The position numbers and the translations under genes were made by a program. From a virus: a stretch of 22,308 nt of DNA. The DNA is taken from positions 1-22,308 of IMG/VR virus record IMGVR_UViG_3300023196_001769, one strand, 5' to 3'. Of the stretch, positions 1,450 to 20,372 are shown in pieces. The notes under the pieces were generated by a model. The model saw only the letters and a list, made by a program, of their open reading frames with translations. It ran no database searches and had not been told where the DNA came from. How positions within the stretch are numbered: position 1 is the stretch's first letter; every line of letters begins with the position of its first letter.

Positions 1450-1450
1450 T

Positions 1451-1880: not shown

Positions 1881-1899
1881 TATTGCAGGGGGGCGGGTG

Positions 1900-1928: not shown

Positions 1929-1934
1929 TCTTAT

Positions 1935-2213: not shown

Positions 2214-2223
2214 ATTCGTTAAA

Positions 2224-2477: not shown

Positions 2478-2500
2478 TGAACTGAAGTTTATTCCATCTC

Positions 2501-3277: not shown

Positions 3278-3285
3278 GGTAAATT

Positions 3286-3441
3286 ATGGCAGTACGTGCA
3301 AAGGTTGGTATTCTCGGTAAAGAAGGGTGGATGCCCGGAAATCCGAAAAAAACTCGTCAGGGGAGTGGTAAGCATACGAAGTATGCCGCGACTTCTCGTA
3401 ACGGGAAAAAGAAGTTATACCGTGGACAAGGTAAAGGTTAA
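3286..3441 (+). CDS. Small basic conserved phage protein (51 aa)
   Basis: ATG at 3286 follows the glycosyltransferase stop by eight bases and has a good Shine-Dalgarno sequence, GAGGT (3276-3280), that overlaps that stop. The 51 residues start MAVRAKVGILGKEGWMPGNP and continue as a run of Lys, Arg, Gly and polar residues (PKKTRQGSGKHTKY, RNGKKKLYRGQGKG). The net charge is strongly positive, so it may bind nucleic acid or lie against a phosphate-rich surface. The GWMPGNP.KTRQG pattern is one I recall from many T4-like cyanophages, where the protein has no known function. It is probably translated with the glycosyltransferase from the 2449 promoter. Confidence 0.75.
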   Translation: MAVRAKVGILGKEGWMPGNPKKTRQGSGKHTKYAATSRNGKKKLYRGQGKG

Positions 3442-3446
3442 ATAGA

Positions 3447-3469
3447 CATAACAATGACACTATGTTATG
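3447..3469 (+). promoter_or_regulatory. Hairpin enclosing a start codon
   Basis: CATAACA (3447-3453) pairs perfectly with TGTTATG (3463-3469) across a nine-base loop. The right arm contains the ATG (3467-3469) of the 217-aa gene. In mRNA this would hold the start codon in a stem and could lower or time its translation. The stem is A/T-rich, so the effect may be modest. Confidence 0.35.
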
Positions 3470-4120
3470 GCAGCATTAATTTGCAACCTCCCCTCGGTTG
3501 AAGTATGGGTAAGGAAAGAATACTTAACTGATCATCAATCTGGTTGGGGCGAATATGTAAAGGGCGTTTGGGTATCGGCTAAGTCGATTCCTGGACGCGC
3601 TTTTTATTTTGAGACATACTTACCAGAGTATGCAGCAATGTATGATAAGTTACCTATTAGTGCTTTTCTTTCGGAACCAGTAAAACCTGATCCAGATATG
3701 AGTTTACAGAACCTTCAGTTTTGGAACTGTATGGATTATGGAATAGTAGCTATACAGAAACAATTCATTGGTAGTATGGATTATGAAGTCTATACACGCG
3801 ATCATGGCACAATGAAAGGTACATATGTTTGCACTATTGATAATTACCACCAAGATCCTGATGTAATTGATTATGCAACAAGTGAAAACCCTTCAGAACA
3901 TAAGTCACATAATCTTATTGAATTAGTTAATGGACAATATTGTTTGTATCCTAATAATAGAACAAGAATATTTGATAATAGTTTGACACCAGAGAATCCA
4001 AAGATACCTGATTTTAAAGTATCAACTGAGTATTATCAAGTAGAAAATGGTTATGATCGCATGGGATTGGGTGATCAAGAGAGTTACTTCTGGAAAACCG
4101 CTCAGGAACGAGATAAATAA
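3467..4120 (+). CDS. Conserved cyanophage hypothetical protein (217 aa) upstream of gp25
   Basis: The 217-residue protein begins MAALICNLPSVEVWVRKEYL and carries segments WVSAKSIPGRAFYFETYLPE and YDKLPISAFLSEP, then a central part with YEVYTRDHGTMKGTYVCTID, then IPDFKVSTEYYQVENG near the end. I recall this protein as widely conserved next to gp25 in T4-like cyanophages, always labelled hypothetical. It looks like a soluble alpha/beta protein without membrane segments. Its constant neighbour, the baseplate operon, suggests a virion or assembly role, but the sequence does not prove that. Its last codons (GATAAATAA) double as the late promoter for gp25. No Shine-Dalgarno sequence is visible; the start lies in a small hairpin. 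Confidence 0.8.
   Translation: MAALICNLPSVEVWVRKEYLTDHQSGWGEYVKGVWVSAKSIPGRAFYFETYLPEYAAMYDKLPISAFLSEPVKPDPDMSLQNLQFWNCMDYGIVAIQKQFIGSMDYEVYTRDHGTMKGTYVCTIDNYHQDPDVIDYATSENPSEHKSHNLIELVNGQYCLYPNNRTRIFDNSLTPENPKIPDFKVSTEYYQVENGYDRMGLGDQESYFWKTAQERDK
4112..4119 (+). promoter_or_regulatory. Late promoter GATAAATA for the gp25 operon
   Basis: GATAAATA matches the NATAAATA form of late promoters described for T4-like cyanophages. It overlaps the stop codon (4118-4120) of the upstream gene and lies 22 bases before the GTG start of gp25. The site ahead of gp8 has the same sequence and nearly the same spacing. Confidence 0.7.
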
Positions 4121-4141: not shown

Positions 4142-4543
4142 GTGCCAGTAGAAAGGGCAAGTAAATCATTTAAGGACGTTTCTATGTCCTTTAAGGTAAA
4201 TCCACTTACCTTTGATTTGATTGCAAATAAAAATGAAACTGCAATTGCACGTTCTATTCGTAATTTAATTCTAACTGTCCCTGGTGAACGTCCATTCAAT
4301 CCAGATTTAGGATCACAGGTAAGTCGTTTATTATTTGAACCACTTGATAACATCACTACCGAATCTTTAAAGGAACAAATTGAAAATACAATTAATAATT
4401 TTGAACCAAGAGTAAAACTCTTGCAAGTAATTGTACAACCAAATTATGATAGAGGTGAATATGATATTAGTATTCGTTATTCTATTGTTGGAATAGAGGC
4501 AACTCCCCAACAATTATCATTCGCATTACAACAGACACGCTAA
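4142..4543 (+). CDS. 25: gp25-like baseplate wedge subunit (133 aa)
   Basis: This is the gp25 family (T4 gp25, P2 gpW, TssE of type VI secretion), a small protein that joins the wedge to the tail sheath and initiates sheath assembly. The family signatures are visible: ETAIARSIRNLILTVPGERP (residues 32-51) with the PGER turn, FNPDLGS, and the EPR motif at E88-P89-R90 in NNFEPRVKLL. Length (133 aa) matches T4 gp25 (132 aa). The GTG at 4142 is the chosen start because it gives the N-terminus PVERASKSFKDVSMSF that I recall from cyanophage relatives; an internal ATG at 4184 would lose it. A late promoter lies 22 bases upstream. The stop TAA shares its last A with the ATG of gp6 (TAATG), so the two are translationally coupled. 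Confidence 0.95.
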   Translation: MPVERASKSFKDVSMSFKVNPLTFDLIANKNETAIARSIRNLILTVPGERPFNPDLGSQVSRLLFEPLDNITTESLKEQIENTINNFEPRVKLLQVIVQPNYDRGEYDISIRYSIVGIEATPQQLSFALQQTR

Positions 4544-6582
4544 TGGCACTAGTCAACTTTGCCAACCTAGACTTCGATCAGATTAAGAAGTCGATCACGG
4601 ATTATCTGAGATCGAATTCTAATTTTACTGATTATGATTTTGAGGGATCAAATCTCTCAACAATTATTGATGCGTTAGCATATAACACTTATATAACCTC
4701 ATATAATGCCAACATGGTATCTAATGAGGTATTCATTGATTCTGCCACTCTCAGAGAGAATGTGGTGTCTCTCGCGAGGAATATAGGTTATACTCCTCGA
4801 TCAAGTAAATCATCAAGAGCAAATATATCTTTTCAAATTGACACAATTAATTATAGTGTTAAACCTCAAACAATAACTCTGAATAAGGGTACTGTTGCAA
4901 CATCAAGTAATTTTGGTAATGAATCTTATGCGTTCTCTATTTTAGAGGATATTACAGTTACTGTAAACGATAATTTTGCAACATTTAATAATGTTGACGT
5001 TTATCAAGGGACATATCTTACATCTGAATTTAGTTATAATACGTATGATCCTAATCAGAGATATATTTTAGATAATGCAAATATTGATATTTCTACCATT
5101 AATGTTACATGGAAACCATCACAATTTTCATCTGTAACAAGAAAATATCGCAGAGCAGATACTTTATTTGAAGTTAATGGAGATTCTCCTGTATTCTGGG
5201 TACAAGAGATTGAAGACGAAAGATATGAATTAATCTTTGGTGATGGCGTATTTGGTAAGGCGCTTGAAGAACCAAACTTCTTAGAGGTAACTTACCTTGT
5301 TAATAATGGAAGTGACTCTAATGGAATAACAGATTTAACTTTTAATGGTAAGTTAACAACATCAAGAGACGATATTGCAATCAACAATGGCATTTCTAAT
5401 GTAACTGTTAACACTCCTTCTTTTGCAGGATCTAGTATTGAAAGTATTGAGTCCATTAAAAAGTATGCTACTCAAACATATGCCTCTCAAAACAGAGCGG
5501 TAACCGCAACTGATTATGAGTACATCATTCCAAAGATTTATCCTGAAACTGAATCCATTTCTGTGTTTGGTGGTGAAGAATTAAACCCACCACAATTTGG
5601 TAGAGTTTTTGCAAGTATCAAACCAGTTAATGGTTCATACCTTTCTAATTTAGTAAAAGATAATATTAAAAGAGAAATTAAAAAATACTCTGTTGGTGGT
5701 ATTGATTTAGAGATAACTGATCTTAAATATCTTTACATTGAAGCACTTGTTAATGTTTATTATAATTCAAATGATGCAAACAGTGGCGATCAAATAAAAA
5801 CAATTGTTTCTAATAACATTGAAAGATATTCTTCTTCAACAGAAATTAATAAATTTGGTGCTAGATTTAAGTATAGTAAGTTTTTAAGTGTAATTGATAA
5901 CAGTAATAGTGCTGTTACATCTAACATCACTACAGTTCAGATGAGAAGAGATCTGAGAGCAGCTCTCAATACGTTCGCTGAATATGAAATTTGTTTTGGA
6001 AATAGATTTCATATCATAAATCATGGACATGGAACCCATGGTGGTAAAATTGGATACAATATTAAATCATCTGGATTCCAAGTAAGTGGTGTTCCTGGAA
6101 TAGTTTACCTTCAAGATGATACAAATCAGGGATTAGAAACAGGAGTTATAAATTTAATTCGTTTAGTTTCTCCTACAGAAGCAAAAATTGTAAGAAGAAA
6201 TGTTGGAACTATTGATTATTTAAAGGGGGAGATTAAATTAAGTCCTATTAATATTATTTCAACTTCTATTAATAAACAATTCCCACTTATTGAAATTTCT
6301 GCTATTCCATATTCAAATGATATTATCGGATTACAGGATCTTTATATTCAACTAGATACTAATAACGTAACTATTAATTCTGTCAATGACAGAATATCTT
6401 CTGGTTATGATATATCAGGTTCTGATTATATTGTTTCTTCAAGTTTTGCAAATGGAAGTTTAGTCCGTGGAACAGTTAATCCTACGACAGTAACAAGACA
6501 AATAGCAAATACGGGTACTTCTGTTACTACCCAAACAAATACACAGTCTACAAATACATCTACACCAACTTATTCATACTAA
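4543..6582 (+). CDS. 6: gp6-like baseplate wedge protein, baseplate-J family (679 aa)
   Basis: Two gp6 copies per wedge form the ring that holds the baseplate together in T4. This 679-aa protein is close to T4 gp6 in length (660 aa). The N-terminal region (LDFDQIKKSITDYLRSNS, FEGSNLSTIIDALAYNTYI, then ATLRENVVSLARNIGYTPRS, residues 9-89) is typical. The baseplate-J core follows, with WVQEIEDERYELIFGDGVFG (about 219-238) and YASQNRAVTATDYEYIIPKI (about 312-331), the R.AVT..DYE motif of J-like proteins. The C-terminal part contains a histidine cluster (H490, H494, H496, H499) and SSGFQVSG, and the tail is Thr/Ser-rich (from about 640). It overlaps gp25 by one base, a W-J-like gene order also seen in P2-type contractile systems. 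It is expressed late from the gp25 promoter. Confidence 0.92.
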   Translation: MALVNFANLDFDQIKKSITDYLRSNSNFTDYDFEGSNLSTIIDALAYNTYITSYNANMVSNEVFIDSATLRENVVSLARNIGYTPRSSKSSRANISFQIDTINYSVKPQTITLNKGTVATSSNFGNESYAFSILEDITVTVNDNFATFNNVDVYQGTYLTSEFSYNTYDPNQRYILDNANIDISTINVTWKPSQFSSVTRKYRRADTLFEVNGDSPVFWVQEIEDERYELIFGDGVFGKALEEPNFLEVTYLVNNGSDSNGITDLTFNGKLTTSRDDIAINNGISNVTVNTPSFAGSSIESIESIKKYATQTYASQNRAVTATDYEYIIPKIYPETESISVFGGEELNPPQFGRVFASIKPVNGSYLSNLVKDNIKREIKKYSVGGIDLEITDLKYLYIEALVNVYYNSNDANSGDQIKTIVSNNIERYSSSTEINKFGARFKYSKFLSVIDNSNSAVTSNITTVQMRRDLRAALNTFAEYEICFGNRFHIINHGHGTHGGKIGYNIKSSGFQVSGVPGIVYLQDDTNQGLETGVINLIRLVSPTEAKIVRRNVGTIDYLKGEIKLSPINIISTSINKQFPLIEISAIPYSNDIIGLQDLYIQLDTNNVTINSVNDRISSGYDISGSDYIVSSSFANGSLVRGTVNPTTVTRQIANTGTSVTTQTNTQSTNTSTPTYSY

Positions 6583-6591: not shown

Positions 6592-9500
6592 ATGATATCA
6601 ACCGATTTACAGCGAGTACAAATTCAGGATATTATTGAGTACCAGTTACCTGCATTTGTAAGGGAAGACTTTCCTCTTGTTGGTGAATTTTTAAAACAAT
6701 ATTATATTTCGCAGGAATATCCTACTGCACCATCTGATGTCTTACAAAATATTGATGAATATGTAAAATTAGAAACTCTTCTTAATTCGCAAGAAGAGAC
6801 AAATCTTGATTCTGATGTATCTTTTAGTGATACTAAGATTACTGTAGGTATCAATCTTGATACAAAACAGTATGGAACGTATCAATTTCCTGAAAGATAT
6901 GGACTAATTAAAATTGATGATGAAATTATTTTATATACATCTAGGGATAGAAGTTCTTTTAATGGTTGTGTTCGTGGATTTAGTGGTGTAACCGCATATG
7001 GAAATGATGAAGAGAGACTTACATTCTCATCATCTGTTGCAACATCTCATATTCAAGGTGCAAATGTTGTTAATCTTAGTAATCTTTTATTAAAAGAATT
7101 TTTAATAAAACTAAAACAGCAAATTGCTCCTGGATTTGAAAGAAGAGAAATTAATAATGAAGTAAACGAAAGACTTTTCCTATCAAGATCAAAAGATTTT
7201 TATCAGACAAAAGGAACTGATGAATCTTTTAGACTTTTGTTTGCTGCACTTTATGGAGAAAAAGCAGAGGTTATTAAACCTAAAGAGTTTCTTTTTAGGC
7301 CTTCTGATGCTCAGTATAGAAAAACAAAGGATATTGTTGTAGAAGCACTCGTAGGTGATCCCTCTGGATTAAAAAATCAAACTTTATACCAAGATGCATA
7401 TCCTGAATATGATATAAGTCAATCATATGCAACTATTGTTGATGTAGAAAAAATTCTTAGAGGTGATAAAACATACTATCAACTTAGTGTTGACTTTGAT
7501 TATAGCAAAGATATTGATTTGACAGGTGGCACCGTTCTTGGAGATTTTACATCTCACCCAAAAACACAGAATACTGTTGTAGTTGCATCTGGATCTTCAG
7601 TAATTGATGTTGACTCTACAATTGGATTTCCAGATAGTGGACAGATTCAAATTAATGGTAATAGTGGTATTATTACTTACCGTTCAAAAACAATAAATCA
7701 GTTTACTGAAGTTGGTTTAGCGAATACAACTAACTTTGGAATTAACTATGATATCGCCTCAGGAACGGAATTAAATTTAAACGTTAGTGCATATGGTTTT
7801 CAGGGAATTAACCCTGTCTCAGTCGCTTCTAGCGATGCCTCAGTGGTAGGTATAGCTACCACCTCTAGGATAGAAATCAGAATTGGTAAAGTACTTGGTA
7901 GAAATTTAATACCAGACAATACATCTAACTTTAGTAAAAATGATAATATTAATATTAAATCACTTGGTAATACTGCGACATCAGTTTTAGATAATATCTG
8001 GTTTACAAACGTTAGCCCTAAGTATGATGTTAAGAGTGTAAGTTTAATCGACTCTTCTAATTTTACATATTCTATTGTAACATTTGCAAAAAATAATTTT
8101 AAAATTGGTGATAAAGCATCAGTTATTCAATCTGATGGTGTTTCTAAAAGTGGTATCATAATTGATATCTCATCTGCATATGCATTTACTTTTTCAAGAG
8201 CAGGAGAGCTTGTAGGATCTACATTCTCTGTCAGAAGAGATATATTAAAACCCGATGTTAGTAATATTAACTCAGATCAATATTCTTATATTGAAAAATC
8301 TTTTGCTAATGTTCAAAACACATATTCCAAGTTTAACGGCGATGTATTAGTTGCATCTTCATCTATACCCCACTATCATGATACGCCTCTCGACTTCTAT
8401 GATAGAAAAGTTTCTTTAGATGGTGAGTATAATGGTGAAATATTCACTTTAGATCGCAACCATGGATTCTTTACTGGTGACAGAGTTTATTATGAATCTT
8501 ACATTTATGAAACTCTTTATGCACAAAATGTAGAAAGTAAATTTCCTGAAATTGAACCGGGTGTTTACTATGTCAAAAGAATAAATGAATCTCAATTTAA
8601 GATTGCATCTAGCGTAACAAATCTCTCTAACAATAATTTTGTTTCCGTATCTGGTATCGTTACTAATAATTACCTGTGCGCTAATGACTTCTTTAATAAA
8701 AATCTTGAGCATCAAAAACTTTACAGAGAATTTAAAAATCCTGTAAATGATGGGGGAACATATGAAACACTTCCAGGTAGAACTGGAATGTTGGTTAACG
8801 GTGTAGAAATATTAAACTACAGATCTGGAGATACTGTTTACTATGGAACGATTAATTCGGTAAATGTTTCTTCTCCAGGAAAAGAATATGATATAGTTAA
8901 TCCTCCTATTCTTTCTATTCAAGATTCTACTGGTGTTGGTGCAACGGGTATTGTAAATGTAAAAGGTAATTTGGAGAGAATTGAAATCCTTGATTCGGGA
9001 TTTGATTATGTAACGGAACCAATTATCACCATAACAGGAGGCAATGGTACAGGTGCTGATGCATTTGCGAATACAAAACTTGTAACTCACTCAGTATCTT
9101 TCTATGCAACATCTGATAATGCACAAGTTGGATTATCCTCCGATACTATTGGATTTACAACTTTCCATAAGTTTAGAGAATCTGAAAGAGTAATTTACAA
9201 AACTGATGGACAAACGGCTATTGGAGGTGTTACAGACAATTCTGAATACTATGTTAAATTAGTTGATGAAAAAACTGTTAAGTTATTCAAGACAGAAGGA
9301 GATTCTATTAATGGATCCAATGCTGTTGATTTAACTTCTAATGGTGTAGGTGTACATAGATTTGAATCCTTTAATAAAAAACGTGTTGTATTTGATGTAA
9401 CTATCGCATCTACAGGATCTAATTATGAAAATAAAGAAAGAAGTATTGGTAGTGTTGGTATAAACACATCTTTAAGTCACGTTAATATTATTAATCATGG

Positions 9501-12500
9501 ATTTAATTCTGGCGAAACTATTACATATCTGGGAAATGCAGATGGTTTAAGTAATGATCAAAATTATATTGTTACTGAAGTAGATAATAATAACTTTAAA
9601 CTTTCATCCGTTGGTGTTGGTACAACTGCAAAATTATTCTATTATAATACAAATCAATTTGTAAATATTGAATCGATTGGATCAGGATCTCATACATTCA
9701 AATATCCTACTATTTCTGTCAACATCACTGGTGAAATTGGTGTTACAACTTTTAGTGGACAAGACTTTAATGCTAAACTTCAACCCGTATTCAGAGGATC
9801 TATTGAATCTGTTTATTTGACTGATAATGGTACTGGTTATGGTTCCAGTGATATCATCAATTATAATAAACAACCAGTATTTGATCTTTTAAGTGGAAGA
9901 GATGCGGAATTACTTCCTATTGTAAACAATGGTAGAATTGAAGAAGTACTTGTAACAAGTAGTGGTTATGAATATAATTCTATTCCTAATCTTATTGTCA
10001 ATGGTGAAGGTAGATTTGCCAAACTTACCCCCGTAATTAGTGGTGGACAAATTGTTAGAGTTATTGTAGATAATCATGGCATTGATTATACAAACACAAC
10101 TACTGTAAGCGTTGTTGCTAGTGGTAGTAATGCAGTTTTCAGTGCAGATATTAATAGATGGACAGTTAACCTATTTGAAAAATATCAGGACATCATTAGT
10201 GAAGATGATGGTATTTTAGATGCATCATCTATAGATGAATATGGAATTGAGTACACTCATTTATATGCTCCTAGAAAATTAAGACAATCTTTATTTGGTA
10301 AAACAATTTCTTCTACCGATGGAATAAAATATGGAGTTGGCGATTTAAGACTTGATACATCAAATGTAGAAACAGAAGCACAGTTTCACTCCCCAATCAT
10401 TGGTTGGGCATATGATGGAAATCCAATCTATGGCCCCTATGGTTTTGATACTCCAACTGGTGGAACAATCAAAGCACTTAGAAGTGGTTATAGTATAACA
10501 CAATCGGTAAATCGCCCTGCATTATCAACATGGAAAAAAGGATTTTTCTGTGAGGACTATAAATTTACAGGAGACGGAGATCTTGATGAACATAATGGTA
10601 GATATTGTTTAACACCTGACTTCCCTAACGGTGTCTATGCTTACTTTGCGACGATCAGCGACGGATCAGTTGAAAGTTCTGGGCCTTTTGAAAACTTTAA
10701 GTTACCTCAGTATCCATATTTTATTGGTAACAAATTTAAGTCCAAACCTAATACCTTTAATTATCAAAATGATTCCTATCAAGGAAAGTATGATATTGTA
10801 TCCAACGAATGGTTTAGAAACACCACGCCATATGGATTGACTTTGAATAATGTATCATATGATTTTGTAACTGAACCATACAAAATTTATGATGAAGTAA
10901 TTGACATAACATCAACGTCTGTTGGAACAATTGATAGTGTTGGTATAGTAACTGGTGGTGATGGATATCAGGTAGGAGACAGAATAGTATTTGAGTCGCT
11001 TCCTGGTGCAACTGCAGCAAAAGCAAAAGTTTCTCAGGTTCTTGGTAAAGTTGTAAACAACATAAGTGTTGCATCTTCAAGTATTTCTGAACTAGAGATA
11101 GTACCAATTGATTCATCAGGAAGATTTGTTGCTTTCTCTACATCTCCTCATAGATTTACAAATTCTAATTTAGTTACTTTATCTGGATTTAATACATCTA
11201 TTACTTTAACTAATAAATCATTTAATATTGGAGTATCTACAAACTTCTATAACTTATCAACTGGAGTTGGAACAGCGGGTGCTACTGGCATCGTAACGTA
11301 TTTTTCAATTGGTGGTATTATTGATCGTGGAGATCTTTCAATTAGAGAAAATGATATTTTTGAATTGGGATCTGAACAAGTTCGCGTATTGAACGTTGAC
11401 AAACTTAGTTCAAGAATAAGAGTTGAAAGATCCGTCAACGCAACAGTATCCTCTGCACACACTGCAACAACATCTATTGTAGAACAAAGTCGCAAATTTA
11501 CCTTTAATTCTAATAGACAAAATAAAGTAAACTTTGAATTAAATAAACAGATTTATTTTGATCCTAAAGAAACCGTTGGTGTGGGAACACTTACAGGTGC
11601 AGGAGTAGGATCAACTATTTTCTTCTCAAATCCTGGATCAGGTATTAGTCAAGTTTTTGTTGAAAATAGAAGTTTATTCCTACCTAACCATAATTTGTTA
11701 ACTGGTGATATTGTTAAGTATCATAATGGAGGAGGAGATTCTGTTGTAGTTACGGTTGATCCCACTGGTTCGACAACTTATAGTATTGCGAATGAAACAC
11801 CTCTGTATGTTGCTAAAATATCTGATAATATTATCGGAGTCCAGACTTACAGAGTTGGAGTTGGTTCTACAGGTACTTTCGTAGGTATCGCTGATACAAC
11901 AATGAATACTGGACTTCTATTCTTTACAGGAATAGGTACTGGTACAAATCATAGCATTCAAACAATCAAGTCGAATGTTGTAAATGCTGAGGTAACAAAG
12001 AATACTGTAACTGTATCAACTGCATCAACGCATGGTTTGACAATAGGTGACAAAGTTCAAATGAACGTCACTCCAGGAATTACGACAACTGTTACTGTTA
12101 AGTATAATGATCAGAATAGAAGAATTGTATTTAATCCACTTGGATTTACAACTACTGGTGTAAGCACTAGTCAAAATACAATTACTATCGATGATCATGG
12201 ATTTAAATCGGGAGACAAAGTAATTCTCGATGCAAATCCAGCAGCGACAGGATTAGAAGATCAGAAAATTTATTACATTTCTAGGTTCTCAAAAGATAAA
12301 GTAAGACTTTGCAATTCAAAATTTGAAGCAGAAAAATTTAACCCGAAATTTGTTTCGATTGATATTGCAAGAAAAGGAACGTTACTTCCGATTAATCCTA
12401 CTTTAAATGTATTTGCAGGGAATACTGTTATTTTCAATCTGGGAGATTCTACTTTATCTTCTCTAAATGCTTCTACTCTATACTCTGCATTTGATTTAAA

Positions 12501-15500
12501 TCTCTATAGAGATTCTAATTATACAGATAAGTTTGATGGATCTCTTACAAGTGATAACTTTGAAGTAACTAAAACAGGTAAAATTGGAATTGATGCTGCC
12601 GCTAAATTAACTCTTGTAGTCAATGATGAAGTGCCTGAGAATTTATTCTATAAGTTTTCAGTTGTTAACTCTGACTTTATTGAAACGATCAAACAAGAGA
12701 TTGTTATTGACAAAGAAGTAAATGGATTTAATAAAATCAATGTCATTAACAGTGTATATCAAGGAGAATTTGCAATCACTGGCATTGGTACAACAAACAC
12801 ATTTAGATATGATGTCAATCAACTTCCTGAAAGATCATCATATTCATCTTTAAATGGTGGATTGTCATATAACACAAATGCTATTGGTGCATATGGTGGT
12901 ATTTCTGATATTAATGTAACGTTCAAAGGTTCAAATTATGAAGAAATAGTTGGGGTATCTACAATTGTAGGTATTGTAACAGGAACAGGAGCTCTTCTTG
13001 AACCAGCAAGCACTACGATTGGTAAAATTCTTTCAACTAAAATTGAGAACATTGGATTTAATTATCCAACTGACTATACTATTCGTCCTACTACAAATCT
13101 TCCTGAGGTTCTATCTCTTGAATCTCTTACTTCCTTTGAAGAAATTGGAATTGCATCTGCAGGTAAAAACTACAGTATTGCACCAAATTTAATTGTTATT
13201 GATGGACTGACTGGTAAGCATATTAATGATGTAGATCTTTTCTTTAGATTAGGAGATTCAAAAGTAACAGTCAGAAAGAACACAAGTGGGCTTTCTAACA
13301 TTACTCCTACAATTATACCTATAGGTAACTCAAATGGAGTTGCTATTAATGACATTTCTTTTGATATGTCTTCTAAGAATGTAACAGTTGGGTTTGACAC
13401 TGGATTTAGTGATCAATCTCCTTTCGCTGTTGGTGATAAAGTTCTTATTGAAAATGTAAGCGTAGGTGTTGGATCCACAGCATCTGGATATAACTCAATT
13501 GATTATAATTACTCACTCTTTACTTTGACTGATGTAAACATTCCTCTTGGTGGAAATGTTGGTGTAGTTACATTTAGTCTTTCTGGAATAATTAATGATA
13601 ATCTGTATGCAGGTAATTTTGATTCTTTAAATTCTGCAGGAAGAATTATTAATCAATCTTCTTTCCCACAATTTAATATCAAATTAAGAAAGAATAATTT
13701 CTTGATTGGAGAGCAGATCGTATCTAATAGTGGTATAGGAAAGGTTGATAGTTGGAATAATAGAATTGAACTACTAAAAGTTTCAACCTCTAAAGATTTT
13801 AATATCGGAGATCTTGTAATTGGACAAACTTCTAGAACTCAAGGTAAAGTCAAGTCCAAAGTTGATTACAACTCAGAAATTGAAACAGAAGCAAGTTCAA
13901 TTGTAGAAAAGGGATGGAATCAAACAACTGGATTCTTTAATGATAATCAACAGAGAATTCCTGATAATTTTTATTATCAAAACTTCTCTTATGCTATTAA
14001 ATCTAAAATTCCATTACAAGATTGGGATGATGCCGTAAGTTCTCTTAATCACACGGCTGGTTTCCTTAAGTTTAGTGATCTTGTAATTGAATCTAAAACT
14101 GAAAGTCCTAATACTGGAGTGTTTACTGACGAAGCTTCCAATATCTCTCTAACTGTTGATATCCTTCCTGTTCCTGCGTATGGCGGATTAGGGAACGGAC
14201 TTAGTGCTAGTACTGGAGGTGGAATCAGTCTTAACTGCTACCCTGCTTTTGATCTAGTAACCGAAAATTCTAAAGTTGCATCTGGCACTGTTTTCTCTGA
14301 TAGAATCTTCTTAGAGAACAGAGTACTTACTGATTTCTTTGAATCTTTTGGAAACAGAGTTCTGACAATTGATGATATTAGTCAACAATTTAATAGTCAA
14401 GAACGTCCCACAAGATTCAGTATTGTCAAGAAGTTCTCTGTTGATCAAAGATCTAAGAAAATTTTCTCTTTCGTAAGAGATAAACTTTTTACAGGAGAAA
14501 GACAAGCATCGTTTGTTTCCCTTGTTCATGATACAAATTCTGCCACAGTTCAAAACTACGGTAGAGTTGAAAGCGTAACTGATTTGGGATCTTTTGACTT
14601 TAATATTTCTGGTTCTGAGGGACAACTTCTTTTCTATCCAACAAAATTCCGCGCAAATGATTACAATATCTCTTTGATGAGTTTTGATATTGATAATAGT
14701 GTCTCTGGTGTTGGTACATTTGCACTTGGAGAGATTTGTGATATTGCCTCTACACAAGTTGATGTACCTGCTGCATCTACTACTACAATCGTAGGTATTG
14801 CATCTACGTATAGATCCTCCAAGATTTTAGTTGAATATACAACAAATGATGGAAGATTTGGAACTAATGAGTTAAATGTTATTCATGATGGAACAACAGT
14901 TGATGTTCTTGAGTATGGTGAAATAGTCACGGGACAACCAACATTGGATATGGGAACATATTCTGCCAGCATGTCATCTGGCACCGTTAATGTCAACTTT
15001 ACGCCTGCTGCTGGATTAGCACTAACCGCTAACACAATTAGGGTATCGATGTCCAGCACTGAATCAGTTGGTGTCGGTACAACAATTATTGGACAAGCAA
15101 CAGAGAATATGGGTTCACTGGAATCCTTCCATACTTCCCTTTCTGCAAGCGGATCACCTGGCATTCATACAATCGCTACCTACACAAACGCAGGTATAAA
15201 TGACTATCAGGCAGCATATTACATCGTAAGTATTGAAGATACAACTAATGATCAATATCAATTCTCCGAAGTTATTGTTCTTAATGACAATTCTGAGTCT
15301 TTCATTACAGAGTATGGAACTCTAACAACTGGTAGTGGTATTGGTACAATCGGTGCTTTAATGACATCGACTAAAACACATCTTCAGTATACTCCTCCTG
15401 CAAGTGTAGACACTCAGGTTCGCGTCTATCAACATGCAGTTCAATTGGTTGAAGTAGATAACACTCTTGATAATGAAATTGATCTAAACAATGCTTCAAT

Positions 15501-18500
15501 CACTGCAGGATTTGGTTTTTACGATGGAACTGCTAAGGATGTTAAGAGAGCATTTGGATTAACTCATAAAGGACAACCTATTTTCCTTAGAAACTTTGAT
15601 GGTAGTGATACCGCCATTGTTAATACATCGACTGGAACGATTAGAGTACCAGATCACTTCTTTGTATCCGGCGAACCAGTCAACTATTCTGTTGGTATAT
15701 CAACTAATGTAAGAATTGGAATTGAGACAACTTCATTTGCTGGAATAGGAAGTACTACAATCCTTCCCGATAATACAAACTTGTTTGTAATTAAGGATAA
15801 TGATGCAACAATCAGATTGGCATCTTCTGCAGAAAATGCTTTAGCATCTACGCCAGTAGCAATCGGAATTACTGGAGTTGGTTTAGGTACATTCCATACT
15901 TTTAAATCTGGTAAGCAAAATACAAAATGCTTGATTGCACTTGATAATTACATTCAAAATCCAATAGTTTCTACTGCAGTAACAACGACTTTAGATACTC
16001 AAATTGAACTTGCTGATACAATTATTGAAACAATTGGCGTTACATCATTCTTTGCCTCTGATTTGATTCAGATTGAAGCAGAGATTATGAAGATCAGCAC
16101 TGTTGGATTAGGAACAACCAACGCTATTCTGGTTGATCGTGGGTGGATGGGAACTGGAATCGCCACTCACCCCGTTGGCGTTGCAGTAACAAAAGTTGAT
16201 GGTGCATATAATATTGTCGATAATGTCATTAATTTCTATACTGCACCACAAGGCCCAGTTCCTATTGGATCCACCACTAACCCTCCCGATGAGAGAGATT
16301 GGACTGGTATTACAACTCACTCTAAGTTCCAAGGCAGAACGTTCCTTAGATCGCAAAATGTTGGAAGCACTAATGGTGCATATGATACCAACTATATTTT
16401 TGACAGTGTTGCTGATCAATTCGATGCTCAAACAAAGAGATTTACATTAAAATCTGAAAACAACGATGTTATTGGATTCTCAACAAATAATGCAGCAGTA
16501 CTTATCAATGGAGTGTTCCAAGGGCCTACAGGACAACTCAGTATAGAGCAAGATTATAGTATGAGTGAAGGTAGTGGTATTAGTAGCATAACCTTTACAG
16601 GAACTGCTACTTCAATTGGAAGTGATCCAAATACTGCATCTATTCCTGTTGGAGGATATATTGTCTCTGTCGGATCTACTGCGGGGCTAGGTTATCAACC
16701 TCTTGTATCTGCTGGTGGTACAGCAGTTGTTTCCACTGCAGGAACAATCACATCTATTGCCATTGGTAGAACTGGTTCTGGATATAGACAGGGATCGCAA
16801 ACTGTAAATGTTGGAGTTTATACATCATCTACAGGCAGAACTGGAATTGAATTTATTGGTACTGCTGCAGTAAGCAACGGACATATTGTAAGTGTTGCAG
16901 TCACAAATCCGGGATCTGGATATCAAGTTGGTTCTGAACCAATTGTGGTATTTGATACTCCTCTTTCATACTCTAATATTCCTTTGGTTTACTCTGGTGA
17001 ATCTCCCGTAGCAGGAGCAGGAACTGAAGCAACCATTGATATTATTGTCGGACAAGGTTCTAGTGTTATTGATTTTGAAATTAAAAACTTTGGATATGCT
17101 TACGGACAGAAACAAGTTCTTACCGTTGCTTCAGGTGGTGCTACTGGAATTCCTACTGATACTAACTTCACATTTGATGAGTTCCAAATTACTGTTAACA
17201 AAGTTGACTCTGATAAATTCTCTGCATGGCACTTTGGTGAACTTGAGCGTCTTGATAATATCAACAATGAATTTAATGGTGTTAAGAGAGGATTTACGCT
17301 CAAGAGAAATGGTTCTCCTGTCACGGTAAGATCGAGAGCGGGTTCAAACGTTGATGTGCAATCTACCCTTTTGATATTCATCAATGACATCCTGCAAGTT
17401 CCTGGTGAGGCATATGAATTCAATGGTGGTAGCGTTCTCAACTTCTCTGAGGCACCTAGAGGGCCGTCTTTTGATGGAGCATTCAGTGGTGATACATGTA
17501 AGATTCTCTTCTATAAAGGATCGGGTGATATTGACGTAACATTCCGCGATGTTCTTCCAACGGTGAAAGCGGGCGATGATTTCTCTATCAGAGGTGATGA
17601 AAGTCTTGTCCCCGGATCCCTTGATCAAGGCGCAAGACTTATTACCGAAATTTTATCTACAGATACTATTGAAACAAATCCTTATTATGGAAGAGGTATT
17701 GATTCTAATCCCGATCATGCCCGCACTGTTACGTGGTGCAAACAAACTGTTGATAAAATTATCAATGGTAAGATCGTCAGTAAGGCAAGAGAACTAAATG
17801 CAGCACTTATCAATCCTAGTACTAATCTGATTCAATCAGTTGGTGTTGGATCTACACAACTCTTTGTTGAAAGTGTTATTCCATTCTTCAATCCTGATGA
17901 TGAAAATCAAACTACTAAGAACAAACAGACAGTTCGAATCATCTCACAAAATAATATTGTAGCAGCAGCGGCAACAGCAGTTGTCTCTATCGCTAATACC
18001 GTTGAGTCTATCACAATTGGTTATGGTGGAACAGGTTATACATCTGCTCCTTCGGTAACCATTGAAACACCTGTAGGACTTGGAGCGACTGCAAGAGCGA
18101 CTGCTACAGCAACACTGACAGGTGATACTATATCAGCAATTACTGTTTCTACACCTGGAATTGGATATACTAGAACTTCCGTTCCTCAGGTTCTGATTGA
18201 AGCACCAACAGCAACAAAGGAAACTAATAAAACAGATCTCTACGAGGGTGACTTTGGTGATATAGTTGGATTGACATCAACGTCTGTAGGAGTTGCATCT
18301 ACAGGACTTGTCATGGAATTCTTCATTCCCGTCGATTCTTTCTTAAGAAACACAAAAGTTGTTGGTGCTGCTGTCACTTTAAGTGATATTTCGGTTGGTG
18401 ATTACTTCACCGTAAGAAATAGCAACATTGGAAGTGGTGTTACATCCCTATATCAAACTGGCGGAACATTGGGAATTACAACACAATTCCTTGATTCTGT

Positions 18501-18783
18501 TTATGAAGTTGCAGCAGTTTCTGTTGCGACAACAGCAGTTGCAGGTGTTGGTATCACCTACGTCAAGAAAGTCACAGTCAGTGTTGAGGATCTTGGTGAT
18601 ATTTCTGGAATTGGATTAACAGAATTTTACGGCGAGTTCTCTTGGGGTAAAATTACCCTTGGAGATAGAACAAATGCCACTGCATTTGATGCATATCTAT
18701 TGAACGGTACATCTGGTATTACAACTGGTAGTGTTGTCAATAGAGTGGAACCTCTTAAACTCGTAGGATACTCTACAACATAA
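6592..18783 (+). CDS. Giant modular virion structural protein in the gp7 position (4063 aa)
   Basis: This 12.2-kb gene lies where T4 has gp7 (1,032 aa), between gp6 and gp8, and is about four times longer. I see no convincing gp7 sequence match, so the gp7 role is inferred from position. The N-terminus (MISTDLQRVQIQDIIEYQLP) and SKDFYQTKGTDESFRLLFAA (about 200-219) resemble a region shared by large phage structural proteins. Then come mostly beta-rich modules: G-x-G-Y repeats, eight H-x-[FL]-x-x-G-[DE]-like units (H624 to H3022), a YHYH domain (about 1269-1380), a GWNQTTGFFND...FYYQNFSYAIKS segment (from 2441), a duplicated domain (2740 and 2872) and another (3268 and 3554). It ends in a GEFSWGKITLGDR domain. 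There is no signal peptide or catalytic motif. It probably forms extended baseplate or fibre-like structures. It begins nine bases after gp6 without a clear Shine-Dalgarno sequence; the frame is unbroken. Confidence 0.88.
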   Translation: MISTDLQRVQIQDIIEYQLPAFVREDFPLVGEFLKQYYISQEYPTAPSDVLQNIDEYVKLETLLNSQEETNLDSDVSFSDTKITVGINLDTKQYGTYQFPERYGLIKIDDEIILYTSRDRSSFNGCVRGFSGVTAYGNDEERLTFSSSVATSHIQGANVVNLSNLLLKEFLIKLKQQIAPGFERREINNEVNERLFLSRSKDFYQTKGTDESFRLLFAALYGEKAEVIKPKEFLFRPSDAQYRKTKDIVVEALVGDPSGLKNQTLYQDAYPEYDISQSYATIVDVEKILRGDKTYYQLSVDFDYSKDIDLTGGTVLGDFTSHPKTQNTVVVASGSSVIDVDSTIGFPDSGQIQINGNSGIITYRSKTINQFTEVGLANTTNFGINYDIASGTELNLNVSAYGFQGINPVSVASSDASVVGIATTSRIEIRIGKVLGRNLIPDNTSNFSKNDNINIKSLGNTATSVLDNIWFTNVSPKYDVKSVSLIDSSNFTYSIVTFAKNNFKIGDKASVIQSDGVSKSGIIIDISSAYAFTFSRAGELVGSTFSVRRDILKPDVSNINSDQYSYIEKSFANVQNTYSKFNGDVLVASSSIPHYHDTPLDFYDRKVSLDGEYNGEIFTLDRNHGFFTGDRVYYESYIYETLYAQNVESKFPEIEPGVYYVKRINESQFKIASSVTNLSNNNFVSVSGIVTNNYLCANDFFNKNLEHQKLYREFKNPVNDGGTYETLPGRTGMLVNGVEILNYRSGDTVYYGTINSVNVSSPGKEYDIVNPPILSIQDSTGVGATGIVNVKGNLERIEILDSGFDYVTEPIITITGGNGTGADAFANTKLVTHSVSFYATSDNAQVGLSSDTIGFTTFHKFRESERVIYKTDGQTAIGGVTDNSEYYVKLVDEKTVKLFKTEGDSINGSNAVDLTSNGVGVHRFESFNKKRVVFDVTIASTGSNYENKERSIGSVGINTSLSHVNIINHGFNSGETITYLGNADGLSNDQNYIVTEVDNNNFKLSSVGVGTTAKLFYYNTNQFVNIESIGSGSHTFKYPTISVNITGEIGVTTFSGQDFNAKLQPVFRGSIESVYLTDNGTGYGSSDIINYNKQPVFDLLSGRDAELLPIVNNGRIEEVLVTSSGYEYNSIPNLIVNGEGRFAKLTPVISGGQIVRVIVDNHGIDYTNTTTVSVVASGSNAVFSADINRWTVNLFEKYQDIISEDDGILDASSIDEYGIEYTHLYAPRKLRQSLFGKTISSTDGIKYGVGDLRLDTSNVETEAQFHSPIIGWAYDGNPIYGPYGFDTPTGGTIKALRSGYSITQSVNRPALSTWKKGFFCEDYKFTGDGDLDEHNGRYCLTPDFPNGVYAYFATISDGSVESSGPFENFKLPQYPYFIGNKFKSKPNTFNYQNDSYQGKYDIVSNEWFRNTTPYGLTLNNVSYDFVTEPYKIYDEVIDITSTSVGTIDSVGIVTGGDGYQVGDRIVFESLPGATAAKAKVSQVLGKVVNNISVASSSISELEIVPIDSSGRFVAFSTSPHRFTNSNLVTLSGFNTSITLTNKSFNIGVSTNFYNLSTGVGTAGATGIVTYFSIGGIIDRGDLSIRENDIFELGSEQVRVLNVDKLSSRIRVERSVNATVSSAHTATTSIVEQSRKFTFNSNRQNKVNFELNKQIYFDPKETVGVGTLTGAGVGSTIFFSNPGSGISQVFVENRSLFLPNHNLLTGDIVKYHNGGGDSVVVTVDPTGSTTYSIANETPLYVAKISDNIIGVQTYRVGVGSTGTFVGIADTTMNTGLLFFTGIGTGTNHSIQTIKSNVVNAEVTKNTVTVSTASTHGLTIGDKVQMNVTPGITTTVTVKYNDQNRRIVFNPLGFTTTGVSTSQNTITIDDHGFKSGDKVILDANPAATGLEDQKIYYISRFSKDKVRLCNSKFEAEKFNPKFVSIDIARKGTLLPINPTLNVFAGNTVIFNLGDSTLSSLNASTLYSAFDLNLYRDSNYTDKFDGSLTSDNFEVTKTGKIGIDAAAKLTLVVNDEVPENLFYKFSVVNSDFIETIKQEIVIDKEVNGFNKINVINSVYQGEFAITGIGTTNTFRYDVNQLPERSSYSSLNGGLSYNTNAIGAYGGISDINVTFKGSNYEEIVGVSTIVGIVTGTGALLEPASTTIGKILSTKIENIGFNYPTDYTIRPTTNLPEVLSLESLTSFEEIGIASAGKNYSIAPNLIVIDGLTGKHINDVDLFFRLGDSKVTVRKNTSGLSNITPTIIPIGNSNGVAINDISFDMSSKNVTVGFDTGFSDQSPFAVGDKVLIENVSVGVGSTASGYNSIDYNYSLFTLTDVNIPLGGNVGVVTFSLSGIINDNLYAGNFDSLNSAGRIINQSSFPQFNIKLRKNNFLIGEQIVSNSGIGKVDSWNNRIELLKVSTSKDFNIGDLVIGQTSRTQGKVKSKVDYNSEIETEASSIVEKGWNQTTGFFNDNQQRIPDNFYYQNFSYAIKSKIPLQDWDDAVSSLNHTAGFLKFSDLVIESKTESPNTGVFTDEASNISLTVDILPVPAYGGLGNGLSASTGGGISLNCYPAFDLVTENSKVASGTVFSDRIFLENRVLTDFFESFGNRVLTIDDISQQFNSQERPTRFSIVKKFSVDQRSKKIFSFVRDKLFTGERQASFVSLVHDTNSATVQNYGRVESVTDLGSFDFNISGSEGQLLFYPTKFRANDYNISLMSFDIDNSVSGVGTFALGEICDIASTQVDVPAASTTTIVGIASTYRSSKILVEYTTNDGRFGTNELNVIHDGTTVDVLEYGEIVTGQPTLDMGTYSASMSSGTVNVNFTPAAGLALTANTIRVSMSSTESVGVGTTIIGQATENMGSLESFHTSLSASGSPGIHTIATYTNAGINDYQAAYYIVSIEDTTNDQYQFSEVIVLNDNSESFITEYGTLTTGSGIGTIGALMTSTKTHLQYTPPASVDTQVRVYQHAVQLVEVDNTLDNEIDLNNASITAGFGFYDGTAKDVKRAFGLTHKGQPIFLRNFDGSDTAIVNTSTGTIRVPDHFFVSGEPVNYSVGISTNVRIGIETTSFAGIGSTTILPDNTNLFVIKDNDATIRLASSAENALASTPVAIGITGVGLGTFHTFKSGKQNTKCLIALDNYIQNPIVSTAVTTTLDTQIELADTIIETIGVTSFFASDLIQIEAEIMKISTVGLGTTNAILVDRGWMGTGIATHPVGVAVTKVDGAYNIVDNVINFYTAPQGPVPIGSTTNPPDERDWTGITTHSKFQGRTFLRSQNVGSTNGAYDTNYIFDSVADQFDAQTKRFTLKSENNDVIGFSTNNAAVLINGVFQGPTGQLSIEQDYSMSEGSGISSITFTGTATSIGSDPNTASIPVGGYIVSVGSTAGLGYQPLVSAGGTAVVSTAGTITSIAIGRTGSGYRQGSQTVNVGVYTSSTGRTGIEFIGTAAVSNGHIVSVAVTNPGSGYQVGSEPIVVFDTPLSYSNIPLVYSGESPVAGAGTEATIDIIVGQGSSVIDFEIKNFGYAYGQKQVLTVASGGATGIPTDTNFTFDEFQITVNKVDSDKFSAWHFGELERLDNINNEFNGVKRGFTLKRNGSPVTVRSRAGSNVDVQSTLLIFINDILQVPGEAYEFNGGSVLNFSEAPRGPSFDGAFSGDTCKILFYKGSGDIDVTFRDVLPTVKAGDDFSIRGDESLVPGSLDQGARLITEILSTDTIETNPYYGRGIDSNPDHARTVTWCKQTVDKIINGKIVSKARELNAALINPSTNLIQSVGVGSTQLFVESVIPFFNPDDENQTTKNKQTVRIISQNNIVAAAATAVVSIANTVESITIGYGGTGYTSAPSVTIETPVGLGATARATATATLTGDTISAITVSTPGIGYTRTSVPQVLIEAPTATKETNKTDLYEGDFGDIVGLTSTSVGVASTGLVMEFFIPVDSFLRNTKVVGAAVTLSDISVGDYFTVRNSNIGSGVTSLYQTGGTLGITTQFLDSVYEVAAVSVATTAVAGVGITYVKKVTVSVEDLGDISGIGLTEFYGEFSWGKITLGDRTNATAFDAYLLNGTSGITTGSVVNRVEPLKLVGYSTT
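10396..10731 (+). other. YHYH-type domain inside the giant protein
   Basis: Residues about 1269-1380 read IIGWAYDGNPIYGPYGF, then LDEHNGRYCLTPDFPNGVYA, then YPYFIGNKF. This is the signature of the YHYH family (aromatic Y-H-Y-H pattern with GWAYDGNPIYGPYGY), found in bacterial secreted proteins and in marine phage structural proteins. Its function is not established; some members are thought to bind ligands or surfaces. Here it is embedded in a beta-rich virion protein. Confidence 0.75.
14809..15405 (+). repeat. Tandemly duplicated domain with xEYGxLxTG motif
   Basis: Copy A (14809-15015, residues 2740-2808) contains YRSSKILVEYTTND, NELNVIHDGTTVDVLEYGEI and LDMGTYSASMSS. Copy B (15205-15405, residues 2872-2938) contains YQAAYYIVSIEDTTND, FSEVIVLNDNSESFITEYGT and IGTIGALMTS. 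The order of strands and the EYG turn are the same, so this looks like an old tandem duplication of a roughly 70-residue domain. Confidence 0.6.
16393..17463 (+). repeat. Duplicated module with xFTLK...[FL]INxxxQxP pattern
   Basis: Copy A (16393-16602, from residue 3268) contains QFDAQTKRFTLKSENNDVIG and AAVLINGVFQGPTGQLSIEQ. Copy B (17251-17463, from residue 3554) contains EFNGVKRGFTLKRNGSPVTV and LLIFINDILQVPGEAYEFNG followed by LNFSEAPRG. The same module is common in phage tail-fibre proteins. G-x-G-Y repeats separate the copies. Confidence 0.6.
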
Positions 18784-18812: not shown

Positions 18813-20372
18813 ATGGCTGCGATAATAACTGATCAACTTCGTATTCTGAACGCAAAAGATTTTGTTGCTAGTGTGGCTTCCACTAGCAACTCTTTTTACT
18901 CATTTGTTGGATTGCCCAATCCTACTGATGTTGATGCAAGTTGGGATAGCAGTCCACCTGATCCAAGAGATAACTTCAATGAGGAGAATAATTATTGGGA
19001 CACAATGATTGCTCTCAAAAAAATAGATGCAGATGATGTAAAACAAGTAATTAAAAAAATAACTTGGCAGTCAGGTACAACATATGATATGTACCGCAAT
19101 GACATTAAGGCAGAGAGTCCATCTAAACCATCTAACGCAATTAGTTTGTATGAGGCAAATTATTTTGCAATGAACTCTGACTATAGAGTTTATATCTGCT
19201 TACAGAATGGATCAACTCCAGAAAACCCAAGTGGTAGATCCTCCCTCGATGAACCAACTTTTACTGATTTAGAACCCAGAGAAGCTGGAACTAGTGGTGA
19301 TGGATATATTTGGAAATATCTTTTTACTATTAAACCTGGCGATATTATTAAGTTTGACTCTACAAACTTCATGCCAGTTCCTAAAGATTGGATAACAACC
19401 ACTGATGCTAATATTTCTGCTGTAAGAAATAATGCTAATACTAGTGGACAATTAAAAATTGTAAAAATTACTAATAGAGGCGTTGGGTTAGGAACTGCAA
19501 ATAGAACATACACTCGTGTTCCAATTAAAGGTGATGGAAATGGTGCAGAATGCACTGTTGTTGTAAACAACAACTCAAATGTAGAATCTATTACTATTTC
19601 AAACGGAGGATCAGATTATACATTTGGAACTGTTGATTTAGTTGCTGGTAATGTTCCCACTGGTACAACATCTCCTATATTTGATGTTATTATCCCTCCT
19701 CAAGGTGGACATGGATCGGATATTTATAGAGAACTTGGAGCAAGGAATGCTCTGATTTATTCTAGAATTGAGAACGATACTGAAAATCCTGACTTTATTA
19801 CAGGAAATGAAATTGCAAGAGTTGGATTGGTTCAAAATCCAAAAGCATATAATACTTCATCTAATCTTGAACTTGATAAAGCAGCAGCAACATATGCACT
19901 TAAATTAACTGGTGCTGGATATAGTTCTGCCACCTTTACTGCTGATGCTTTTATTACTCAAACAGTTGGACTAGGATCTACTGCTGTTGGTAGAGTTGTG
20001 TCATATGATCAAGTAACTGGAGTACTTAAATATTGGCAGGATAGATCTACTGCTGGATTTAACACTGATGGATCTGCAAACACAAACTCAGAATATGGGT
20101 TCAAGATGAATAGATTTACTCCCGGCATCGCTGATGGTGGATCATTTAACATTATTGGTGGATCAGCAACTTTAGCAATCCAATCCTCATTTACGGGTAT
20201 TTCTACTGAAATAAATAGTCGTACCTATTACCTGGGGCAATCCTTTAATGAGGGTGTTGCTCAACCAGAGGTTGAAAAATATACCGGTAATATTATTTAC
20301 GTTGATAATAGGCCTTCTATAACAAGATCGTCTAATCAAAAAGAAGATATCAAAATTATCTTGCAGTTCTAA
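18813..20372 (+). CDS. 8: gp8-like baseplate wedge protein (519 aa)
   Basis: T4 gp8 (334 aa) is a wedge protein that binds gp7 and gp10. Matches to the T4 sequence as I remember it are visible at both ends: SGDGYIWKYLFTIKPGD (about 165-181) against T4 GDGYVWEYLFEI, and the C-terminus GNIIYVDNRPSITRSSNQKE followed by DIKIILQF against T4 GEMIYMENRPPII...EEINILFTF. The start MAAIITDQLRILNAKDFVAS and KKITWQSGTTYDMYRNDI are typical of cyanophage forms. The protein is about 185 residues longer than T4 gp8. Much of the excess lies at about 212-300, where G-x-G-Y-type repeats like those of the giant neighbour occur (QLKIVKITNRGVGLGT, VESITISNGGSDYTFGTVDL). Late promoter upstream; no Shine-Dalgarno sequence visible. 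Confidence 0.9.
   Translation: MAAIITDQLRILNAKDFVASVASTSNSFYSFVGLPNPTDVDASWDSSPPDPRDNFNEENNYWDTMIALKKIDADDVKQVIKKITWQSGTTYDMYRNDIKAESPSKPSNAISLYEANYFAMNSDYRVYICLQNGSTPENPSGRSSLDEPTFTDLEPREAGTSGDGYIWKYLFTIKPGDIIKFDSTNFMPVPKDWITTTDANISAVRNNANTSGQLKIVKITNRGVGLGTANRTYTRVPIKGDGNGAECTVVVNNNSNVESITISNGGSDYTFGTVDLVAGNVPTGTTSPIFDVIIPPQGGHGSDIYRELGARNALIYSRIENDTENPDFITGNEIARVGLVQNPKAYNTSSNLELDKAAATYALKLTGAGYSSATFTADAFITQTVGLGSTAVGRVVSYDQVTGVLKYWQDRSTAGFNTDGSANTNSEYGFKMNRFTPGIADGGSFNIIGGSATLAIQSSFTGISTEINSRTYYLGQSFNEGVAQPEVEKYTGNIIYVDNRPSITRSSNQKEDIKIILQF

Follow-up and report, generated by a model that had tools for sequence, protein, structure and literature searches.

The DNA analysed here, referred to as the window, is a stretch of 22,308 bases that makes up the entire partial virus record IMGVR_UViG_3300023196_001769, from a phage that is known only as a contig. 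Its main feature is a giant open reading frame (ORF) that begins with ATG, runs for 4063 codons with zero internal stops and would encode a protein of 4063 residues and 438 kDa, called the giant gp7 below. The genes follow the order gp25, gp6, giant gp7 and gp8, and then comes an ORF of the VrlC/DUF4815 family, inside which the window ends (Table 1). An earlier note on this DNA had described a frame unbroken over 12.2 kb in the slot of a T4-type gp7, between gp6 and gp8, and both points are confirmed, the second through the family matches of the neighbouring genes. The same note had stressed that the gene fills over half of the window, and it does take up 12,192 of the 22,308 bases (55%), a proportion that says little given that the record is partial. 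The VrlC/DUF4815 family (PF16075) is matched by the ORF after gp8 and not, at an E-value (E) of 0.1, by the giant ORF.

The frame cannot be ascribed to chance, given that 53 distinct full-length relatives (3800-4300 residues) align to the giant gp7 at 31-95% identity, and that the ratio of nonsynonymous to synonymous substitution rates (dN/dS) is 0.05-0.24 in 44 of 44 segments (11 segments in each of four relatives), values that are approximate, since dS reaches 1.88 and the synonymous sites are near saturation. The length alone might suggest an assembly fusion or a decayed gene, and at least five related contigs (L007, L016, L025, L074, L077) do carry broken frames, but near-equal lengths and an identical gene order recur in named complete genomes and in many contigs, and dN/dS is low throughout, which leaves this explanation a negligible likelihood. 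The broken gp7 frames in the five contigs are probably assembly or sequencing errors.

The earlier note had proposed that the protein replaces gp7, a wording that has to be revised, given that homology indicates that it is almost certainly gp7 itself, in the form carried by marine T4-like cyanophages, and not a foreign replacement. In a single hhalign comparison, 22 N-terminal sequences matched a seven-sequence profile of T4-type gp7 with a probability of 97.3 (E 2.7e-11), which places residues 194-323 of the giant protein on residues 730-824 of T4 gp7, with a score of 97.4 that lies above all 200 column shuffles (at most 31.9). When all the PDB chains were searched (hmmsearch) with a 129-sequence family profile, the sole significant matches were the T4-type gp7s of phage KP1 (1.2e-5) and T4 (2.2e-5), followed by a match at 0.053; phmmer searches of the PDB with the N-terminal 903 residues, or with the whole protein, gave nothing useful, and only the family profile succeeded. 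A 12-sequence family profile that contains no T4 row matched the genome of T4 at one place, which lies within gene 7 (E 1.1e-9); nine records were searched, of which seven also supplied profile rows and two, T4 and Syn19, represent independent finds.

Similar indications are provided by the AlphaFold model of residues 1-720, which has a mean predicted local distance difference test (pLDDT) score of 73.5. Of 133 dereplicated rows, 129 entered the structure alignment (A2). Foldseek ranks the T4 baseplate chain 5iv5_BJ first for this model (E 1.8e-4, probability 0.89); the 5iv5 entry contains T4 gp7, and chain BJ is taken to be this protein from its length and numbering. In the VIA comparison, residues 241-436 of the model fall on residues 763-844 of 5iv5_BJ (Z 8.8, root-mean-square deviation [rmsd] 2.0, 81 aligned), and the sequence match also reaches domain V, ending within it at T4 residue 824.

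The sequence matches show a T4 gp7 core that spans residues ~8-321 and into which two C modules are set. The slot proteins of phiM7 and of the Stenotrophomonas phage Bhz51, which lack the insert of C module 1, align collinearly from residue 9 with T4 residues 643-834 (probability 95.8), so that the homology to gp7 starts at the N-terminus; in the giant protein, the first ~60 residues give a non-significant second match (probability 0.1) in the same register. No counterpart of the first ~640 residues of T4 gp7 was found in the giant protein, in which the core starts at the N-terminus and none of the other segments match, and, since the short relatives lack these residues too, they are treated here as a feature of the T4 group that does not define gp7. 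Domain VI of T4 (PF21456, T4 residues 920-1012) likewise found no match, either at E 0.1 or in any segment, a search that a diverged copy could escape.

The earlier note had described a short N-terminal part followed by modules, a layout that is not upheld, given that the profile alignments indicate a gp7 core that is very probably split in two, with one piece near the N-terminus and the other around residue 2480. With the rows of the giant forms alone, this second element reaches a probability of 18.2 (E 1.3e-3, score 34.2), which rises to 27.2 (E 6.6e-4) when four shorter relatives are added and to 58.8 (E 9.4e-5) when only three short relatives are used, the last two results being above 200 of 200 shuffles. 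When the protein was divided into 39 overlapping segments (54 rows), scores over 30 were obtained only over the core and residues 2301-2600, and all others were 18.7 or lower. The second element follows the N-terminal core in the T4 order, and both motif patterns were found in this order in 115 of 119 proteins, a set that was not dereplicated. Of the 274 family proteins in the loci, 119 were complete; the five with broken frames were dropped, the window protein, Syn19_088, T4, V09 and 44RR were added, and duplicates were kept, some of the contigs representing phages that also have named records. The four proteins in which the two patterns were not both placed are 44RR, L154, L221 and Syn19_088; in L221 and Syn19_088, a profile located the second domain, which lacks the H-x-x-G pattern. 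Only with the limit relaxed to E 10 did the second-element profile reach the T4-type gp7s, and at 1e-3 it missed three of the 23 proteins of 900-1200 residues.

The T4 protein (1032 residues; PDB 5hx2, 5iv5) shares with the giant gp7 the core at about T4 residues 643-835, the neighbouring genes and, by the weaker match, the motif at 863-889 in the same order, and differs from it in its residues 1-642 and its domain VI model, neither of which was found in the giant form. It also differs in the spacing of the two motifs, which are separated by 150 residues in T4, 334 in Bhz51, 598 in HTVC008M, 877 in phiM7, 1662 in S-PM2 and 2284 in the giant gp7, where a further 1,576 residues follow the second. 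Given this spacing and the C-terminal tail, the gene appears to have grown both between the core pieces and after the second one. No earlier description of this two-piece mapping of the T4 core was found in the literature searched, and subscription papers may hold one. The placement of this apparently split core shows structural biologists where the chain should leave the wedge and where it should re-enter it.

An ordinary gp7 elsewhere in the genome, an alternative that the earlier note had named, was sought with a T4-type gp7 profile in nine complete phage records, with T4 as the positive control and eight relatives. Five of the eight relatives gave one match each (E <=0.01), in the slot protein or, in Syn19, in the 6483-residue ORF after gp6, and none of the eight gave a match outside the giant or slot protein, so that in these relatives the check does not refute the gp7 reading. 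In each of the eight, seven of which supplied rows to it, the profile of the giant family matches the giant or slot protein.

According to a passage of PMC7029224, cyanophages and pelagiphages lack T4 gp7 and have VrlC as its substitute, in which case the giant ORF would be some other structural protein, and an ORF named VrlC does lie after gp8 in S-SM2, HTVC008M, phiM7 and Syn19. However, VrlC aligned with T4 gp7 at a probability of only 0.1 (E 0.52; three of the seven VrlC rows are incomplete), against 97.3 for the giant family, and in phiM7, which has both proteins, it is the slot protein (E 1.7e-8), and not VrlC, that the T4 gp7 profile picks out. The substitution by VrlC is therefore regarded as extremely improbable, and the present result answers the published statement that gp7 is missing, a statement to which no answer was found in those portions of the literature that were searched.

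The remainder of the chain appears to be modular. In a profile self-comparison without a shuffle control, off-diagonal matches of at least 60% were found in 50 of 81 segments, and these matches are read here as 18 regions that would belong to five repeated module families, that is, six A, five B (some of them double), two C, three D and two E modules (Table 1). The earlier note had spoken of dozens of beta modules, a description that holds only in part, given that beta structure was seen in the two stretches covered by predicted structures (residues 1-720 and 740-1420) and that the number is replaced by these 18 regions and a single YHYH-related domain. Together with this domain and the gp7 core, the modules cover 2094 of the 4063 residues. 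The B-module profiles also match gp8 and the VrlC-like protein of S-PM2. The model of residues 740-1420 has a pLDDT of 87.0 and found no convincing match in the PDB, its first Foldseek result having a probability of 0.30. The barrels of the A modules resemble those of ubiquitin E1, endosialidase and EF-Tu at Z 5.5-8.8, a likeness from which no function is drawn here.

Table 1. Genes of the window that surround the giant gp7 and putative parts of its chain; module rows are based on profile self-matches unless otherwise stated.
Feature	Residues	Position	Strand	Basis
gp25, wedge neighbour		4142-4543	+	PF04965 E 4e-17
gp6, wedge neighbour		4543-6582	+	PF21379 E 1.4e-16; phrog_219 E 1.2e-194
Giant gp7		6592-18783	+	phrog_2885 baseplate wedge subunit, E 0
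gp7 core, first helical stretch	8-62	6613-6777	+	Collinearity of phiM7/Bhz51 with T4 643-834
C module 1, set into core	66-130	6787-6981	+	Self-match to residues 323-374, probability 88-89; no phiM7/Bhz51 counterpart in alignment
gp7 core with DFYxxKGT motif	156-240	7057-7311	+	hhalign to T4 gp7; PDB-wide hmmsearch
Region like T4 gp7 domain V	240-321	7309-7554	+	hhalign match; VIA Z 8.8
C module 2	321-399	7552-7788	+	Self-match; 9n71_A Z 10.7, rmsd 1.9, 71 aligned
A module 1	600-705	8389-8706	+	Self-match
B module 1	752-830	8845-9081	+	Self-match
A module 2	843-930	9118-9381	+	Self-match; small beta-barrel, Z up to 8.8 to ubiquitin E1
A module 3	955-1040	9454-9711	+	Self-match; Z 7.8 to phi92 endosialidase 255-338
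B module 2 region	1069-1189	9796-10158	+	Self-match
YHYH-related domain	1255-1380	10354-10731	+	PF14240 E 5.4e-22
A module 4	1682-1795	11635-11976	+	Self-match
A module 5	1852-1940	12145-12411	+	Self-match
B module 3	2101-2165	12892-13086	+	Self-match
Second gp7 core element	2440-2510 (best 2467-2493 on T4 863-889)	13909-14121	+	Profile alignments
D module 1	2593-2709	14368-14718	+	Self-match
D module 2	2715-2815	14734-15036	+	Self-match
D module 3	2822-2945	15055-15426	+	Self-match
A module 6	3004-3110	15601-15921	+	Self-match
E module 1	3265-3330	16384-16581	+	Self-match
B module 4 region	3371-3504	16702-17103	+	Self-match
E module 2	3549-3616	17236-17439	+	Self-match
B module 5	3795-3872	17974-18207	+	Self-match
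gp8, wedge neighbour with B-like module		18813-20372	+	PF09215 E 1.4e-11; B2 profile at gp8 212-276

The YHYH-related domain is matched by the Pfam family PF14240, at 79.1 bits against a cut-off of 25, over positions 90-182 only of the 193 of the profile. With a profile built from giant forms, the domain was found in 95 of 95 giant forms and in none of 24 short ones, which include three T4-type gp7s; the Pfam model, when searched against whole genomes, matched S-SM2 and P-SSM2, and found no match in HTVC008M or phiM7. As a passage of PMC7824862 predicts a Zn site and a hydrolase function for YHYH domains, the giant gp7 could be seen as a metal-dependent hydrolase that degrades the cell envelope from each wedge, all the more given the occurrence of the domain in every giant form and the near invariance of one histidine (1266) and three aspartates (1275, 1322 and 1332). 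However, the YHYH motif, which is retained in the two bacterial YHYH proteins compared, occurs in 0 of 210 gp7 copies, as does an H-x-H before the DGxP(I/V/L)Y motif; the later tyrosine motif is mostly YAYF, and the Pfam match lacks the first 89 positions of the profile. Zn-dependent hydrolase activity is thus unlikely in the gp7 copies, and an envelope-degrading enzyme on each wedge appears very improbable. No earlier description of the loss of the YHYH motif from gp7 copies was found in the literature searched.

In T4, gp7 and two gp6 chains form a heterotrimer. PMC3004832 describes T4 gp7 as a monomeric component of the baseplate pins, with six copies in each tail, one of its domains binding gp9 and a different one binding gp10, and the copy numbers in Table 1 of that paper place it once per wedge beside two gp6 chains. 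By analogy, six copies of the giant gp7 would be the number to expect per baseplate, and, at 438 kDa against 119 kDa for T4 gp7, these would total ~2.6 MDa, as opposed to 0.7 MDa in T4. The T4 N-terminal part that is missing here is presumably what binds gp9 and gp10. The gp11 family was found in T4 only (one of the nine records, and none of the eight relatives), and the gp9/gp10 N-terminal family was above the cut-off in T4 and Syn19 (two of the nine records, one of the eight relatives), with a sub-threshold match in S-CREM2; a passage of PMC2984593 reports that g10, g11 and g12 are absent from cyanomyoviruses, and gp12 was not searched for here.

As for the presence of the protein in virions, which the earlier note had proposed to check by proteomics, PMC10665884 (Table 3) reports the detection by mass spectrometry of a homologue, ORF122 of S-CREM2, with 91 unique peptides and 27.2% coverage, and no such data were found for the giant gp7 itself. 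The T4-GC969 protein was detected in virions of S-SM1, according to a passage of PMC3037559, and the T4-GC969 protein of Syn19 is the 6483-residue ORF with the gp7 core.

The best reading, held to be probable as a whole, is that of a wedge gp7 whose extra mass would take the place of the outer parts of the T4 baseplate. The chain would leave the wedge core after the domain-V-like part, build a large first body from A, B and YHYH-related modules, rejoin the core near residue 2480 and then add another body composed of D, A, E and B modules. In such a scheme, gp7 would keep the wedge core, and the added bodies would make up the periphery, for which T4 uses other domains of gp7 together with gp10, gp11 and gp12; this platform would brace neighbouring wedges, carry the fibres and meet the cell envelope upon contraction of the sheath. 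The chance that the added bodies form the baseplate periphery is put at slightly less than even, and the stronger form of the proposal, in which one looped chain per wedge, tied to the core at two places, does the work of the whole T4 outer baseplate, is advanced more tentatively still. If this were true, with the T4 N-terminal part lost and gp10 and gp11 gone, the contraction trigger would travel through one covalent body instead of a succession of separate proteins.

A number of observations weigh against this reading. The second element is a match of 27 residues, with hhalign probabilities of 18-27% in the giant forms and 59% in the short relatives, and the Pfam models of the gp7 domains (PF21427, which is that of domain V, PF21428 and PF21456) were not matched at E up to 0.1. 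The second Foldseek match to the model of residues 1-720 is an unrelated chain that passes the 0.001 limit (E 7e-4, probability 0.09), the whole-chain template modelling (TM) scores to 5iv5_BJ are only 0.06-0.08, and T4 gp7 ranks 24th of 50 in the VIA list, where it is preceded by barrels whose matches, of equal or higher Z, fall elsewhere in the model. Residues 1-66 are modelled at a pLDDT below 50 and residues 191-240 at ~65, perhaps because the gp6 partners are missing from the model. The T4-type gp7 profile matched nowhere in three of the eight relatives (HTVC008M, S-CAM9 and S-PM2), and the search for a second gp7 covers these eight complete genomes, the phage in question being known from a partial record. 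The peripheral role, in turn, is drawn from T4 biology and from the gp10 and gp11 families that were not found. Given that the homologues range from 503 to 6483 residues, no fixed mass is needed, and size is no proof of a role.

Alternatively, the added bodies may be mainly receptor-binding, in which case the giant gp7 would be a covalent set of adhesins, anchored by gp7, that determines the host range. The barrels of the A modules are modestly similar to a phage endosialidase domain, at a Z of 7.8, in a range where chance matches are common. The protein also changes faster than gp6 and gp25 (for P-SSM2 and S-SM2, for example, 28-44%, against 44-58%), and conservation in 23 distant relatives is lowest over residues ~2501-3000, which include the D modules, at 0.13-0.23 per 100-residue block. 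On the other hand, no hypervariable tip is present in 16 close relatives, in which the mean identity is 0.67-0.88 in every 100-residue block and high at the C-terminus; in most of 27 hand-chosen loci, four parts of gp7 show similar identities (gp8 was scored in six of these loci and the final part of gp7 in 19), and dN/dS is low throughout. As the rate of change in close and middle relatives is even over the whole protein, a main role in receptor specificity is less likely: a host-contact or fibre role, as suggested in the earlier note, may be kept as a candidate, contact with the host at sheath contraction is plausible, the role of main specificity determinant less so, the idea of a variable adhesin is weakened, and a gp7-anchored adhesin set as a whole is judged rather unlikely.

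The window protein joins a giant-gp7 family that is already known, and a giant gp7 is not new in itself. It matches the profile of phrog_2885 with 3490 bits, the better of two stretches placing residues 7-3413 on profile positions 8-3356 of 4179, and 466 records of the phage collection match its first 903 residues, all at less than 60% identity; by their names, 372 of these are Synechococcus phages, 61 cyanophages and 24 Prochlorococcus phages. The proteins of S-SM2 (4156 residues), P-SSM2 (5195) and S-CAM9 (3884) are annotated as gp7 or as baseplate wedge initiator or subunit, and the surprise is moderate, given that the gp7 label of the giant protein is of long standing in several records. 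The S-SM2 and P-SSM2 proteins share the slot and the core of the giant gp7, and the module profiles were found along the length of those of P-SSM2 and S-CAM9; the S-SM2 protein is 45% identical to the giant gp7 in a full-length alignment, whereas that of P-SSM2 is more than 1,100 residues longer.

Among the shorter relatives, the slot proteins of phiM7 (1006 residues), HTVC008M (1016) and Bhz51 (503) have both core elements in the same order and some B modules, and differ from the giant gp7 in having no YHYH-related domain and only 31-217 residues after the second motif. ORF122 of S-CREM2 (1937 residues) has both core elements, the YHYH-related domain and B modules, with its core at residues 183-215, but its second element lies at 1827-1925, with no C-terminal extension, and it has thus grown only between the core pieces.

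A number of annotations in related genomes may be read in the light of the core. In Syn19, the 6483-residue protein Syn19_088 (L300:4655-24106), labelled 'virion structural protein' and assigned to T4-GC 969, holds the gp7 core, the domain-V-like part, the YHYH-related domain and the second element; Syn19_090 (L300:25381-29580), a 1399-residue ORF that adjoins gp8 and is labelled baseplate wedge subunit, has no core match. The former is thus indicated as the true gp7 of Syn19, and not the ORF that bears the wedge label. The slot protein of HTVC008M (L091:8436-11486, 1016 residues) is annotated as 'head closure Hc2', but its core identifies it as gp7; B modules held in common may be the source of the label, since phrog_460 also matches the gp7 and gp8 of the window. 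The slot of S-PM2 (L093:1829-11503) holds a 3048-residue ORF and, before gp8, a 175-residue ORF with a C module, and the two are perhaps a split gp7.

Finally, the window contains no transfer RNA and no Rfam match at the gathering score. The ORF at positions 3467-4120 is labelled ferredoxin in PHROGs, a label that looks doubtful, given that just four cysteines are present in 217 residues and that the C-x4-C-x2-C pattern of ferredoxins was not seen by eye. A further ORF of 258 residues, at positions 2501-3277, belongs to phrog_1574 and matches, more weakly, a PHROG whose description is glycosyltransferase.

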